From assembly GCA_013140635.1 (NCBI GenBank), contig JABFSM010000011.1, forward strand, positions 1 to 33,425: DNA of 33,425 bases, in the 5' to 3' direction. The notes beneath the pieces were generated by a model. It was not told the origin of the DNA. It ran no database searches and was given only the letters and a program-made list of their open reading frames with translations. Positions 10,964-20,304 of this stretch are shown piece after piece. The position numbers and the translations under genes are program-made. This stretch comes from Gemmatimonadales bacterium (GTDB taxonomy: Bacteria; Gemmatimonadota; Gemmatimonadetes; Gemmatimonadales; GWC2-71-9). How positions within the stretch are numbered: position 1 is the first letter of the stretch; every line of letters starts with the position of its first letter.

Positions 10964-12037
10964 GTGGACGTTGCGCCGCGCCCAGCCGAGCCCGCCGGCC
11001 TGCTCATCGTTGACGACGAGGAGGCCATTCGCAACGCCCTCAAGCGGTTTCTCTCTGGACAGGGGTACGATGTCATTACCGCCGCGAGCGGTGAAGAAGC
11101 GATTCAGGCAGTTCGTCGCCACAAACTCTCGGCGATTCTCCTCGACGTCCGCCTTCCCGACGCGAGCGGCGTCGATCTGGTGCCGAAGCTTCTCGACCTC
11201 GAGCCCAACGCCGCCATCCTGATGCTCACCGCGGTCAACGATGCGTCGAGTGCCACGCTCTGCATGCAGCGCGGTGCGATGGACTACCTCACCAAGCCGG
11301 TCGATCTCCCGGATCTTTCCCGCGCCATTCTGCGCGCGCTGCGCCGGCGCGAGACCCAAATCGAGAGCGCCAAGATCAACCAATGGCTCAAGGAGGAGGT
11401 GGCGCTCCGCACCGCCGAGCTGCGGATCGAGCGCGCCAACCTGGAGCGGATCTCCGTCGCCACCCTCGAGGCGCTCGTGAACGCCTTGGAGGCGAAGGAC
11501 CCCTATCTCCGCGGGCATAGCGCGCGGGTGGCGGACATGTCGGCGATGGTGGCGGCGGAGTTGGGCATGGGAGACGAGCATGTCGAAGCGATCCGGACCG
11601 CGGGGCGCCTGCACGATATCGGGAAGATCGGGATTCGAGAGGAAATCCTGAACAAGCAGGGACCGCTCACCGACGACGAGTTCGAGCACGTCAAGCGGCA
11701 CACGGTCACCGGTTCGGAGATCCTCGCCCCCCTCACCCACCTTGGCCCGGTCATCGAATACGTCCGAAGCCATCACGAGCGGTGGGACGGCAAGGGGTAC
11801 CCTGATGCCCTCGCCGAGGACGCGATCCCGATGGGGGCGCGCATCATCGGGGCGGTGGAGATCTTCGACGCTCTCACCACGTCGCGCCCATACCAGGAAA
11901 AGATGACGCCGGAACTGGCGGTCGAGCGGCTCCGAGATCTGATCGGCACCGTGGTGGATCCGGCGGTCCACCGGGCGCTGCAGCAGGTGGTCGCTCGCCG
12001 AGAGGCGCTCATCTTCCTCGACGATCCGCGTGGTTGA
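10964..12037 (+). CDS. response regulator with HD-GYP domain (RpfG-like, putative c-di-GMP phosphodiesterase)
   Basis: REC: LLIVDDEEAIRNAL...ILLDVRLPDASGVDL...TAVND...DYLTKPVD; HD-GYP: LRGHSARVADMSA...AGRLHDIGKIGI...HHERWDGKGYPD. Confidence 0.93.
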   Translation: MDVAPRPAEPAGLLIVDDEEAIRNALKRFLSGQGYDVITAASGEEAIQAVRRHKLSAILLDVRLPDASGVDLVPKLLDLEPNAAILMLTAVNDASSATLCMQRGAMDYLTKPVDLPDLSRAILRALRRRETQIESAKINQWLKEEVALRTAELRIERANLERISVATLEALVNALEAKDPYLRGHSARVADMSAMVAAELGMGDEHVEAIRTAGRLHDIGKIGIREEILNKQGPLTDDEFEHVKRHTVTGSEILAPLTHLGPVIEYVRSHHERWDGKGYPDALAEDAIPMGARIIGAVEIFDALTTSRPYQEKMTPELAVERLRDLIGTVVDPAVHRALQQVVARREALIFLDDPRG

Positions 12038-13079
12038 GCGGGGGGCTCTCCGGGTGCTGGTCGTCGACGACGACCCCATCATGGCCGGCATGCTCCGCGC
12101 CGCCCTCGATGCGGAGGGGTTCACGGACGTGGCCGTGGCAGGCAGCGGCGCCGCCGCCCTCGACTCGTCGCACGCCCCGGACGTCGTTCTCCTCGACCAT
12201 CAGCTCCCCGATACGACCGGGATCGATCTCCTTCCCCGCCTGCTCGCGCGCCCGGACCCGCCCTCCGTGATCATGGTGACCGGTGAGGGGGGCGCCGAGC
12301 TCGCGGCCAACGCCCTGCGGCTCGGCGCCGAGGACTACCTGGTCAAGGGACCGAAGCTCCTCGCGGCCCTGCCGGGGATCGTGGAGCGGGCGCGGCGGAA
12401 TCGGCTGTTGCGATCGACCCGCACCGAGGTCGAACGGGAGTTGGTCCGCGCCGAGCGGCTGGCCGCCATCGGCGAGATGACGGTCACCCTGCACCATGAG
12501 CTCAATAACCCCCTCATGGCGGCGATGGCCGAAGTGGAGTTGCTCCTGCAGGGAAGCCCGACGATGGAGGAGATGCGCGAAGCGCTCACCCTCGTTCGGA
12601 CGGCGCTCTTCCGGATGCGCGACATCGTGAAGCAGGCTCGCGACCTCCAACGCGCCGACAGCGCCGACTATCTGAGTGGGCTACCCATGATCGACCTCAG
12701 CGCGCGCGCGGCCCCGGTCGCGGTGGCGCGGGGACGCGCCGTGCTCGTGGCGGCAAACCGCGAGCTCTCCCGGGCGGTGGCGCTCCTCCTCCGACATGCG
12801 GGGTGGACGGTCGACAAGGCGAGGACGATTTCAGAAGCGCAGCACGAGGCGGCTCGGCTCGACACGACATTGGTCGTGATCTCGGTGCCCGGAACTTTCG
12901 TCGATCCGCTGCAGGGATTCCATGCGCCGCCGGACCGGCCATACACGCTCGTTGCGCTCGTTCCGGGCAGCCCAGCTCCGGCGCGGGCGGCGGGCGCCGA
13001 TCTGGTGCTGTCGCTTCCGTTCGACCCCGCCTCGTTCACCAGTGAAGTGCTCGCCGCCATGCGGCGGCGGGGCGAATAG
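12030..13079 (+). CDS. REC - HisKA(DHp)-like - degenerate receiver-like protein lacking an obvious ATPase domain
   Basis: GTG start overlapping the HD-GYP gene stop; VLVVDDDPIMAGML...VLLDHQLPDTTGIDLL...VTGEGG...DYLVKG; AERLAAIGEMTVTLHHELNNPLMAAMAEVELLL (H-box-like); no N/G1/G2 boxes seen. Confidence 0.82.
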   Translation: MVERGALRVLVVDDDPIMAGMLRAALDAEGFTDVAVAGSGAAALDSSHAPDVVLLDHQLPDTTGIDLLPRLLARPDPPSVIMVTGEGGAELAANALRLGAEDYLVKGPKLLAALPGIVERARRNRLLRSTRTEVERELVRAERLAAIGEMTVTLHHELNNPLMAAMAEVELLLQGSPTMEEMREALTLVRTALFRMRDIVKQARDLQRADSADYLSGLPMIDLSARAAPVAVARGRAVLVAANRELSRAVALLLRHAGWTVDKARTISEAQHEAARLDTTLVVISVPGTFVDPLQGFHAPPDRPYTLVALVPGSPAPARAAGADLVLSLPFDPASFTSEVLAAMRRRGE

Positions 13080-16751: not shown

Positions 16752-17318
16752 AAATAGCAGATCTACATGGACCACGATATCCGGATTCATCTTAAGTATG
16801 CCCAGCATCTTGCCCAGGCCCCCGATCTTGTAGTTCTTGAGATTCATCGGGGTGCTGGCCGTCAGGTGAATGCCGCCGGGCCCGCGAAAGAGAAGGGCCT
16901 TGATCTTCTCGGGTCGAGAGACACCGTGAATCACGAAGTTGCCGTTCAAGACCACACCGGCGCTGTCGCCCCGCTGCCAATCGGGAGTAACCCCGAGCAG
17001 CTCGAAGCGGATGGTCGGGTAGACCGCCGACTCCATGCTCTTGTTGAGATCGCGATCGCGGCGGTCGTTGCCGGTGGCCAGCGTCTTCACCGGGGCCTCG
17101 ACCCACCCGCGCACCTCATGGAGCGCGGCGCCGCCGGCCATCGCGCCGCGCACCTGGGTGGTGGTGCCGGTGAAGTCGCCAAGGGTGGATTTCCCGTCGA
17201 AGCTCAGTGTGCCGCGAGCCACGGGAGCGTCAGGCCAAGTCACCTGAGCGGGGGCCGGTGCCGCCTGCATGGCCGCGCCGGCCACCGCGAGCCCCCAAAT
17301 GCGGAACGCCGCGATCAC
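16704..17318 (-). CDS. YceI family protein
   Basis: Signal peptide; ARGTLSFDGKSTLGDFTGTTTQVRGAM...RDRDLNKSMESAVYPTIRFELLGV...LNGNFVIHGVSRPEKIKALLF. C-terminus EEKGSGKREEGSGC is encoded by repeat array B. Confidence 0.9.
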   Translation of the reverse strand: MIAAFRIWGLAVAGAAMQAAPAPAQVTWPDAPVARGTLSFDGKSTLGDFTGTTTQVRGAMAGGAALHEVRGWVEAPVKTLATGNDRRDRDLNKSMESAVYPTIRFELLGVTPDWQRGDSAGVVLNGNFVIHGVSRPEKIKALLFRGPGGIHLTASTPMNLKNYKIGGLGKMLGILKMNPDIVVHVDLLFGEEKGSGKREEGSGC

Positions 17319-17722
17319 ACCGCGGCGTCGGCTGCCGCTTCGAGCTCGTATCGCCGAATCTTGGCCAGCAACGTCGACCGCGCCAAGCCAAGGAGTTGCG
17401 CGGCGCGGCGGCGGTTGCCGCCGGTGTGCTGCAGCATCGCCGCAATTTGGCGGCGCTCCACCGCCTCGAGCGGCTCCGGCGGAGGGGCGTTTTCGCCGAG
17501 CGCCTCACGCAGGCGCTGGCGGTCGAGTTCGGGCAGGGCCAAATCGATCACGAGGAAGCCGGTGGAGCCTTCGCCCCCCTCGCCGATCATGGCGGCAGCC
17601 GCCGAACCTCTCTCTTCTGTCGTCACCACGCGTCCACCGTTCCGAAATGCCTCCGCCACACGTTCGGCTCGGGCGGAATCGGAACTAACCACGAGAACCG
17701 GGCGATGTTCGATATCGATCAT
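17315..17722 (-). CDS. Fis-type HTH regulator with short receiver-like N-terminus
   Basis: Start MIDIEHRPVLVVSSDS preceded by GGAGGTAGCGAA; LEAVERRQIAAMLQHTGGNRRRAAQLLGLARSTLLAKIRRYEL is a Fis-family HTH. Confidence 0.85.
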   Translation of the reverse strand: MIDIEHRPVLVVSSDSARAERVAEAFRNGGRVVTTEERGSAAAAMIGEGGEGSTGFLVIDLALPELDRQRLREALGENAPPPEPLEAVERRQIAAMLQHTGGNRRRAAQLLGLARSTLLAKIRRYELEAAADAAV

Positions 17723-17840
17723 TTCGCTACCTCCTTTGTCAATTCGGTATATACTTGCCGGCAATCGGGACGAATCTGCGGCGCTCCATGGCCGAGATCG
17801 GCCAGTTGCACGCGCGTTACCGACCCCCATCGACCGGCAA

Positions 17841-18824
17841 ATGACTGCTCCCCCTGACTTGACCCGACTGGCTCCCGGCGACCGTGTCCAGGATCCGTTC
17901 CTCGTCCTGGAAGTGGAGACGCGCAGCGGGGATCATCCGCACACCGTCCTCACCCTGGGCAACAGCACCGGATCGATCCAAACTGCCCCATTCTGGGCCG
18001 AGGAGCAGTCGAAAATCGCCGGGATCGGGAAGCGGTCAGTCGTCCAAATCATTGGTGAGGTAGCGACTTACCGCGACAAGCGGCAGCTCAAGGTGAGCTC
18101 CATTCGCGTTCTCCCCACCGGCACCGTGGAACCAGCTCGACTGCTCCCCTCGGTGGGGGATGTGAGCCGGTATTGGGCCTATGTCGACCGGCTTCGGGGC
18201 GAGATCAAGGGTCCGCGGCTTCGGGCCGTCCTCGATCTCTTTTATGAGGATCCCGAGTTCCGGGAGCGGTACGAGCAATGCCCCGGGAGCACAATCGGGC
18301 ACCATGCCGAGATCGGCGGATTGTTGAAGCACACGAGCGAAGTCCTCGCTATTGCGCAGGCTATCGCGCGAGCCGCACGGGCGGACGAGGATCTCGTCAC
18401 GGCGGGTGTACTCCTCCACGACATCGGCAAACTCGAGGCGTATCGGTGGGACGGGGCGTTCGAGGCCACGGAGCTCAATGCGCTGCAGGGCCATGTTGTG
18501 CTCGGCGCATTCATGCTGGACCGCACGGTGCGCGCGGCGTCACCCTCACCCTGCAGCGACCAAGAACTCGCAATTCTCACCCACCTGGTTCTTTCTCATC
18601 ACGGAAAGCAAGAGTTTGGCGCGCCGGTTCCGCCACTCACACTCGAAGCGGAAGTGATCCATTACGCCGATAACGCGAGCGCGAAGACGTCGAGCATGGC
18701 GGAGGCAATCAACACGGCGGCGAATTTTGCGGAAGGGGCGTTGGTCTCGAGCCAGGGCGTGTGGCAGGTGGATCGGCGCCGAGTGTACCGGGGAAAGTCG
18801 GATTGGGGAAGGAGTGAGGAGTGA
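17841..18824 (+). CDS. OB-fold + HD domain protein (YhaM-like 3'-5' exoribonuclease family)
   Basis: ATG at 17841; OB-like N-terminus ...HTVLTLGNSTGSIQTAPFW..., HD domain GGLLKHTSEVLAIAQAIA...AGVLLHDIGKLEAY...LSHHGKQEFGAPVPP...EVIHYADNASAK. Confidence 0.88.
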   Translation: MTAPPDLTRLAPGDRVQDPFLVLEVETRSGDHPHTVLTLGNSTGSIQTAPFWAEEQSKIAGIGKRSVVQIIGEVATYRDKRQLKVSSIRVLPTGTVEPARLLPSVGDVSRYWAYVDRLRGEIKGPRLRAVLDLFYEDPEFRERYEQCPGSTIGHHAEIGGLLKHTSEVLAIAQAIARAARADEDLVTAGVLLHDIGKLEAYRWDGAFEATELNALQGHVVLGAFMLDRTVRAASPSPCSDQELAILTHLVLSHHGKQEFGAPVPPLTLEAEVIHYADNASAKTSSMAEAINTAANFAEGALVSSQGVWQVDRRRVYRGKSDWGRSEE

Positions 18825-18862
18825 GGCCCAAGAGTACGAGCGAATAGCGGGAAGCGAATAGC
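18811..18862. repeat. heptamer repeats at CDS end (array G)
   Basis: GGAGTGA x2 (18811..18824, containing the stop codon), then CGAATAG-CGGGAAG-CGAATAG in one 7-bp register. Confidence 0.75.
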
Positions 18863-18891
18863 TCTCATCAGGTAACCGATACCTGCCCTAC

Positions 18892-18936
18892 AAAAAAAGG
18901 AACGGCCGCACAGCACGAGGCTGTCACGGCCGTCCC
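18892..18936 (-). terminator. Rho-independent terminator
   Basis: Minus strand GGGACGGCCGTGACAGCCTCGTGCTGTGCGGCCGTTCCTTTTTTT: ACGGCCG/CGGCCGT stem plus inner ACAGC/GCTGT, followed by T7. Confidence 0.88.
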
Positions 18937-19314
18937 ACGCATGAACCGGCTGAGGTCGGAGCCTTCGCCGCCGTTCTTCTTCTGCCTCGCCACCGTTTGG
19001 CTGATCCGCCTATCGGTTCGGGCTTGGCAGAGCCTCAGTGTTGATTCCCAGGCCGGATGGCCGTCCCACCTGGTTCGTCCATGCAAGCGCTGCGAGTCGG
19101 ATCAGGTCGCGGACTGACCCTTCGCACTGCGCTCCGAGGCGCCGCGTCGGAGCGGGTGGAACACGCGACTGGCTCCACCTGTTCGGGCCGGGTGATCACC
19201 AGGATCGTCGATGCTTTGGACGAGCAAGCGCCCCAGACATCTCCCCTGTCGTTCCGCCCGAACTGGCATCGCCCTGATCCGGCTTCTGAGGGAAGCCCAT
19301 CGCAGGCGACACGC
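18892..19314 (-). ncRNA. candidate large structured ncRNA, class not recognised
   Basis: No convincing CDS; promoter-like TTGCGC-N16-TATCTT just upstream; perfect stems, e.g. CGCTCCGA/TCGGAGCG (19130..19154), GGTGGA/TCCACC (19155..19179), GCGA..GGGTCAG/CTGATCC..TCGC (19092..19125), GGCTTC/GAAGCC (19281..19297), long-range CTGAGG..TCTGCC/GGCAGA..CCTCAG (18950..19038); intrinsic terminator at 3' end. Confidence 0.72.
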
Positions 19315-19318
19315 CCCC

Positions 19319-19346
19319 AAGATAGGATCGGCGTACAATCGCGCAA
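19319..19346 (-). promoter_or_regulatory. sigma70-like promoter for the ncRNA candidate
   Basis: Minus strand TTGCGC (-35), 16-nt spacer, TATCTT (-10), followed by a G-rich putative start. Confidence 0.5.
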
Positions 19347-19496
19347 GTGCCTGATTTTATTCGGTTTACGACGCTTCGAGTTGGTATCGTGTGGACAGGC
19401 AAGTGCAGGTGCCACAGGGGAGAAGAGGTGGTTCGACACACGGTGTGGAAATGTGAATCAACATCTGCTCGTTCGAGTGGGTGCATGGGGGGGGCG

Positions 19497-19611
19497 CTAT
19501 TCGCTATTCGCTATTCGCTATTCGCTATTCGCTATTCGCTATTCGCTATTCGCTATTCGCTATTCGCTATTCGCCGAAGGTCGGAAGCGAATAGCGAATA
19601 GCCAATAGCGA
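19497..19611. repeat. heptamer tandem array with opposing arm (array C)
   Basis: 11 perfect tandem copies of CTATTCG (19497..19573) facing CGAATAG-CGAATAG-CCAATAG; ends 1 bp from the stop codon of the minus-strand CDS at 19613. Confidence 0.95.
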
Positions 19612-19612
19612 C

Positions 19613-20233
19613 CTATGACTCCAACCCCACCTCAATGTACCGATACGTCTCCTCTTCATCCCCCGCGAGGCTTCCGAAGAGTGCGCCCGCCGAACTCGCG
19701 GCAAACCACCCGCCGATCAGCAGATGCTCGGAGCCGAGGGCGCTGACGATGGGGCGAAACCAACGGCGCAGATGACGGATTTCAGGGGCCCGCGGGGTGA
19801 GAAGCGCCATGAGGGCGCCGGTGCCCGATGTCGCACGCAGGAAATGCGCGAGGGCGTGCGCACGCTGGGAGAATTCAACCGCCTTGACCCCGGGCTCGTC
19901 GAAGAGCACCCGCCCCTCGAAGACGTCCATCGGCGGCGCGTCGAGACGCGGCCCGAGATAGACATACTGCCGTCCACCATCTGCTGTCTTTCGCTCCACC
20001 ACCGCGGCCGCCGTCTCGCTGGTAAGCCGGGCGGCATGGAGCAGGTCGTCGTCCGGCAACAACCCGACCGCGGCGGTCCACTCAAGGGCTGCTAGGGCGG
20101 TTTCGACCGGGCACCCCGAGGCATCGTCAAACGCAATCAAGCGCGGGGCTTGGTCGGCCCGGAGGAGCAAATGGGCCACCCCCTCGCTTCGATCGAGGAA
20201 GGTGCGAACGGTAAGGGTACCGGGGGTCGCCAT
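19613..20233 (-). CDS. hypothetical protein (206 aa)
   Basis: [59 protein letters not shown]...; ATG at 20233 chosen because the longer ORF runs antisense through cspA. Confidence 0.7.
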
Positions 20234-20304
20234 GGCTTCAAGCTTAAGGTCCGCCGTGGATATTGACAAATCCCCCAACGGGCGGAACCTTCTCCGAGTG
20301 GCCG

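Follow-up and report, generated by a model that had tools for sequence, protein, structure and literature searches.

We found that an intergenic locus in a Gemmatimonadales genome almost certainly encodes a real structured non-coding RNA (ncRNA), a predicted transcript of ~420 nt that very probably represents a new RNA family. The window (the whole stretch of 33,425 nt that we analysed) has a gene-free interval at 18825–19612 with no credible gene, and the RNA is encoded there on the minus strand (18892–19312). Comparison of homologues shows an independent, modular RNA with its own putative promoter and terminator. Large structured bacterial RNAs that cannot be related to any known family are rare. 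Unlike most orphan RNAs, the present one offers a testable lead, namely an apparently DnaA-controlled promoter and a co-occurring protein. The sequence-only reading of the window had proposed an undescribed large structured ncRNA, and this proposal is borne out by covariation, by homologues and by the lack of an Rfam match. Its label of a 'large regulatory RNA' also fits. The upstream DnaA-box-like array and the co-occurring protein described below were not part of that reading. All RNA features given here are on the minus strand.

None of 100 dinucleotide shuffles folds as well as the RNA strand (z = -3.3). RNAalifold predicted 115 pairs from 19 full-length members; 95.1% of the cells are paired in these homologues, and 77 of the 115 pairs show double changes, compared with 42 in shuffles and 19–30 when the structure was slid. 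The helices of the window are thus far beyond chance, because compensatory change keeps them in the homologues. Those that had been picked out by eye can be read on the minus strand as GGTGGA/TCCACC, CGCTCCGA/TCGGAGCG with a 9-nt loop, (T)GCGA-A-GGGTCAG/CTGATCC-GAC-TCGC(A) and the nested CTGAGG..TCTGCC/GGCAGA..CCTCAG. All of the named helices belong to the conserved structure except GGCTTC/GAAGCC, which falls in the variable 5'-most ~75 nt. The open reading frames across the locus had been judged not to be protein-like. In agreement with this, any given frame is open in at most 4 of the 19 full-length homologues and the indels are mostly not multiples of three, which rules out a protein-coding reading.

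In the alignment of homologues, the promoter block is conserved and the 5' end variable; a highly conserved core follows, and then the 3' domain and the terminator. The 140-nt core (model R1; 19043–19182) has 98.2% of its cells paired in 22 sequences and 95.9% in 90 distinct sequences; the 90-sequence alignment was fitted to the model, whereas the 22-sequence core and the 19 full-length alignments were not. Double changes occur in 33 of the 36 core pairs among the 90 sequences, and none of 500 shuffles reached the observed value of any measure, so that covariation, which had been suggested as a check on the structure, is found both in the full-length RNA and in the core. Hairpin H1 (19155–19179) carries a near-invariant loop region, GCCAGUCGCGYGY, and is 97.8% paired, with 8 of 8 outer pairs covarying. 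Hairpin H2 (19130–19154), formed in the window by CGCTCCGA/TCGGAGCG, is 98.3% paired, and its pair 39–57 occurs as six pair types. Stem H3 is capped by hairpin H4 (19091–19126), and both covary, with 96.2% (H3) and 91.5% (H4) of the cells paired. The 5' domain (19183–19312; helices 1–4 of the full-length structure) is conserved in its 3' part and variable in its first ~75 nt, and the 3' domain (18937–19042; helices 9 and 12–17) contains the GGGGAUGGAAGC and GAAGAAGAACGG motifs.

Two further pairings lie outside the predicted secondary structure of the core. The first is a kissing interaction between the H1 loop (GUCGC, 19165–19169) and the H4 loop (GCGAC, 19106–19110), which is 98.7% paired and whose lead pair occurs as GC63 AU10 UG10 GU2 CG1 UA1. 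It shows a double change in 22 cells, compared with 3.5 in shuffles, and a scan of all column pairs ranked it first among the pairs outside the secondary structure. The second (pseudoknot 2) connects the H2 loop (GYGC, 19139–19142) with a 3' strand after H3 (GCRC, 19087–19090). Here 360 of 360 cells are paired (100%) and 3 of the 4 pairs show double changes, a result found in 0 of 500 shuffles. Since both pairings covary, the core is a doubly pseudoknotted fold.

The promoter (19319–19346) consists of TTGCGC (19346–19341), 16 nt and TATCTT (19324–19319), and the 5' end of the RNA is inferred to lie ~7 nt past the -10 element. The intrinsic terminator (18892–18935) is a GC-rich hairpin followed by T7 (18898–18892), where we set the 3' end; its helix (helix 18) shows double changes in 11 of 13 pairs. 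Both elements had been recognized from the letters alone, can be read on the minus strand and are conserved in the homologues. A simple consensus scanner called neither a promoter nor a terminator at the RNA locus, and the two calls therefore rest on conservation across homologues. The terminator comes directly after the RNA with no intervening gene, which is the basis for predicting an independent transcript. A conserved element, CGTAAACCGAATAAAATCAGGCACTTGCG (19342–19370), overlaps the -35 and is present in nearly all homologues, and no further copy of similar quality was found elsewhere in the genome.

The convergent neighbour (16767–18824, plus strand) has a YhaM-like 3'-5' exoribonuclease domain in the C-terminal half of its product (Pfam HD; NCBIfam PRK13480 with E = 6.5e-36, below that model's cut-off), and a YhaM-like gene is found near the RNA in about 33 loci. 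The open frame encodes 685 aa; the homologues are mostly ~320–450 aa long, and the true start may therefore lie further in. A perfect tandem repeat of CGCTATT (11.4 units, 19495–19574) lies between the promoter array and the gene of the neighbouring protein, with related GCGAATAG units just downstream of it at about 19590–19612. Elsewhere in the window (10964–13079) is a tandem pair of response-regulator genes, one with an HD_5 domain and the other with a HisKA domain.

The domain composition varies among the loci. In L024, the core is immediately flanked by the promoter and the terminator, and the 5' and 3' domains are both missing. The 5' domain is also missing in L008 and in several second copies, and the 3' domain in L013. 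Judging from this comparison, the 140-nt core is the minimal unit and the two flanking domains are optional. Two RNA copies exist in eight genomes, and as a rule only one of them is at the protein locus. The divergent second copies (L202, L208, L210, L212, L214, L215, L217, L218 and L219) are apart from the protein and have their own terminators.

We compared the locus with known RNA families. Neither the window locus nor 12 other loci with homologues has a match at or above the gathering cut-off in Rfam 15 (4227 families), as would be expected of an undescribed RNA, and a permissive scan of the window found nothing near the cut-off (for example, chrB-b with 18.5 bits vs 36.5, on the opposite strand). 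The absence of RNase P, tmRNA and SRP hallmarks had already been pointed out from the sequence, and these identities can indeed be rejected. The locus matches neither RNase P RNA (RF00010) nor tmRNA (RF00023), and the genome's own RNase P RNA (284 bits) and tmRNA (140 bits) are on other contigs; ARAGORN found no tmRNA in the window. SRP RNA (RF00169) does not match the locus; of 6 genomes searched, 5 have it at another place, and the window's own genome gave no hit. 6S RNA is a ~180-nt rod with an open-promoter-like bubble. It (RF00013) has no match in the genome, and the core described here is branched and pseudoknotted, not a rod. OLE, ROOL and GOLLD gave no match at the locus or at the homologue loci in the scan with the whole Rfam library, and we found no account of such an RNA in the literature. 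With more than 300 nt, covarying helices, a promoter, a terminator and no coding capacity, the predicted transcript belongs descriptively to the large structured independent ncRNAs.

The core covariance model detected the RNA in 81 of 399 sampled genomes of the phylum, 75 of them in family f1 and six in family f3, and in no other sampled family. Both families belong to the Gemmatimonadales, bacteria that live in soil and water. When 41 genomes were searched at the DNA level, the locus turned up in most members of the window's family, so the homologues that the original reading called for exist throughout most of that family as well as in a second one. One genome seemingly without the RNA (G150) has a diverged copy beside the protein, with 36.2 bits in a model search with the filters off. 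Another (G021) has only an RNA of the divergent second type and no protein. A GTDB-wide pattern scan returned 117 stretches, and those that score with the model all belong to this phylum, namely Gemmatimonadetes MAGs and 'Bacterium HR33' (L145). The matches outside the phylum do not score with the model and are due to chance, as are four viral matches. There is no RNA match in plasmid and phage collections, and a phage or plasmid origin was rejected on this ground.

We then investigated the region upstream of the promoter. A conserved array of TCCACA/TGTGGA hexamers is located 40 to 130 nt upstream of the -35. In the window, it consists of a distal DnaA-box-like array, TGTTGATTCACATTTCCACACCGTGTG (19437–19463; family consensus TGTGGATTCACAACTCCACATCGTGTGGA), and a proximal DnaA-box-like TCCACA (19390–19395), both recognized by hexamer enrichment and conserved arrangement. 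TCCACA/TGTGGA is the most enriched upstream hexamer (45-fold). In 89 non-redundant loci, it occurs 149 times at -300 to -250 from the core and 73 times at -250 to -200, with 1.0 expected in each case. The mean number of copies is 3.3 per f1 main locus and 3.0 in f3. The order is conserved as TGTGGATTCACAACTCCACATCGTGTGGA, about 40 nt, TCCACA..GCACA and then CTAACCCGAAGAAACATCGGCACTTGCG, and this pattern occurs only once per genome where it is matched. The exact TTATCCACA is also found upstream of the second copies L208 and L210, and the hexamer is wholly missing at three of the nine second copies.

The same hexamer is found at dnaA. In several genomes it occurs in the interval that separates dnaA from dnaN, alongside CTACTACTACTACT-like repeats, and in 6 of 7 genomes it lies between the -35 and -10 of dnaA. 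In L259–L265, the dnaA-dnaN region is a Gemmatimonadales oriC candidate in which a TCCACA box adjoins DnaA-trio-like CTACTACTACTACT; the dnaA promoter of these loci contains a TTTTCCACA box. A DnaA-box together with a DnaA-trio is the conserved origin-unwinding core (PMC8287927). Because the hexamer recurs both beside the trio-like repeats of oriC and in the dnaA promoter, the array hexamers are probably DnaA boxes to which DnaA would bind. At the sequence level, the RNA gene has what is expected of a DnaA-regulated gene, a cluster of DnaA-box cores near the promoter that is shared with oriC and dnaA, and it is reasonably likely that transcription of the RNA is regulated by DnaA. Alternatively, the upstream hexamers might bind another transcription factor with a TCCACA core and have no link to DnaA. 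Exact nine-base TTATCCACA boxes are rare in the array, which mainly shares the hexamer core, as this alternative would predict. It does not account for the same hexamer at oriC and in the dnaA promoter, and we consider it unlikely.

The RNA locus itself is not the origin. In 7 of 7 genomes, dnaA and the RNA share a contig, with 35 to 360 kb between them. We read the GC skew in G049 and G017, leaving out G019 (a scaffold with N runs), and it switches at or near dnaA, at least 183 kb from the RNA in G049 and about 30–70 kb in G017. Since the skew switches there and the unwinding element is in dnaA-dnaN, the RNA locus as oriC was ruled out.

The gene that adjoins the RNA (19613–20236, minus strand, with the open frame running on to 20659) encodes a ~205-aa protein that belongs to no known family and co-occurs with the RNA. 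The protein is adjacent to the RNA in 73 of 85 loci; it is upstream and co-directional in f1, and convergent, about 150–215 nt beyond the core, in f3. A search of the same 399 genomes as for the RNA found it in 76 f1 and six f3 genomes, with one further marginal match in f2 (E = 7e-4). The exceptions to the pairing of RNA and protein are mostly assembly limits, as in G376 and G392, where the contig ends. The two halves of the protein are homologous (hhalign E 5e-7), and it is acidic (pI 5.1–6.1). It has no sequence relative in Pfam, NCBIfam or PDB, and a match to FtsX is at chance level (E = 0.2). A search with its AlphaFold model (pLDDT 78) gave no significant fold match and no recognised nucleic-acid-binding fold; weak matches to sliding-clamp folds (TM 0.2) were set aside. 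In 23 loci, among them L195–L206 (genus g37 and others), a conserved ~190-aa gene with an apparent signal peptide (cluster 8) lies between the protein and the RNA. The co-occurrence may be the result of one gain in the f1/f3 ancestor, followed by vertical inheritance. As a single ancestral gain could produce it, the co-occurrence supports a functional link between the RNA and the protein without proving it, and we lean only slightly towards such a link.

We propose that DnaA probably sets the transcription of the RNA through the upstream array, in which case the RNA output would follow the replication or growth state. The RNA, which most likely acts in trans, may work as a ribonucleoprotein (RNP) with the ~205-aa protein or in one pathway with it, and the two stay together in two families despite the changed arrangement. 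Rather than serving metabolism or a mobile element, the RNA would most likely adjust replication, growth or gene expression to the cell cycle, by protein binding or by presenting the conserved loops. This chain of a trans-acting ncRNA, DnaA control and a protein link is our best explanation, although as a whole its chance of being right is somewhat below even. The acidity of the protein, its lack of a recognised nucleic-acid-binding fold and the second copies that lack the hexamer count against it. If the link is true, replication or cell-cycle control would include an RNA in this phylum, in which such control has hardly been studied. A more specific version, a lineage-specific replication-control RNP in which a DnaA-driven pseudoknotted RNA and the two-repeat protein feed back on replication initiation or couple growth to it, is speculative.

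Alternatively, the RNA might be a base-pairing or protein-sequestering regulator whose loops (CAAGGGCUCAGG, GAAGAAGAACGG and GGAUGGAAGCC) make contact with mRNAs or with a global regulator; it would then have no particular connection with the protein. The conservation of unpaired motifs among variable helices is consistent with this, and there are cell-cycle precedents in CcnA (PMC8959179) and EcpR1 (PMC4414408). On the other hand, we saw no conserved target. A CAAGGGC/GCCCTTG match to the dnaA leader, inspected by eye, is present in only 2 of 7 genomes and was dropped, and we regard a regulator of this kind as doubtful. A somewhat less probable idea is that the DnaA-box array is the main function, in titration or reactivation as with datA/DARS of Escherichia coli, and that the RNA is an unrelated housekeeping neighbour. 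The array is dense, its spacing is conserved, and it is on the dnaA contig but away from the origin. However, the distance from the array to the -35 of the RNA is kept in both f1 and f3, and several second copies at other places in the genome have retained hexamers. In L024, L008 and L195, the promoter has shifted to the edge of the core, and its sites have shifted with it. The array also follows the RNA and not the protein, as in f3, where the protein is on the other side. Less probable again is a ribozyme or catalytic RNP unrelated to replication, for which the upstream sites would only set growth-linked expression. Its pseudoknotted, near-invariant core with a kissing loop is as in catalytic or RNP cores, but there is no Rfam ribozyme match, and the absence of the RNA from related families argues against a universal housekeeping activity. 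Finally, although GC-rich DNA generally folds well, a chance structure, a coding region or a divergent known RNA can be dismissed, being refuted already by the covariation and opposed by the lack of a conserved frame, the RNase P, tmRNA and SRP RNAs elsewhere and the lack of an Rfam match.

A trans-acting ncRNA under probable DnaA control can be compared with several known systems. Like RNase P RNA, tmRNA, SRP RNA and 6S RNA, it would be a structured, stable bacterial RNA, but its fold is different. In descriptive terms, it resembles the group of large ornate RNAs of unknown function, which includes the bacterial OLE, ROOL and GOLLD RNAs (PMC12286853). The likeness lies in the size class, the many covarying helices, the kissing loops and the unknown function; the present RNA differs from these three in having no Rfam match, a chromosomal locus, an upstream DnaA-box-like array and different host taxa. 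OLE RNA also has protein partners. CcnA is a cell-cycle ncRNA at the Caulobacter origin and, like our RNA, is tied to replication control sequences (PMC8959179). The two can be told apart by position and presumed control: CcnA is inside the origin, presumably under CtrA, whereas the RNA described here is 35–360 kb from dnaA and not at oriC. EcpR1, an sRNA of Rhizobiales, represses dnaA mRNA and shares with the present RNA a proposed action on replication and the cell cycle, but it has two stem-loop domains, pairs with dnaA and gcrA mRNA and is under stringent control (PMC4414408). The anatomy of the present RNA is found in neither CcnA nor EcpR1. Among DNA elements, datA and DARS of E. coli are non-origin DnaA-box clusters with fixed spacing. 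The array upstream of our RNA is likewise a cluster of DnaA-box-like sites away from the origin with fixed spacing, but unlike datA and DARS, it forms the upstream region of a structured RNA gene.
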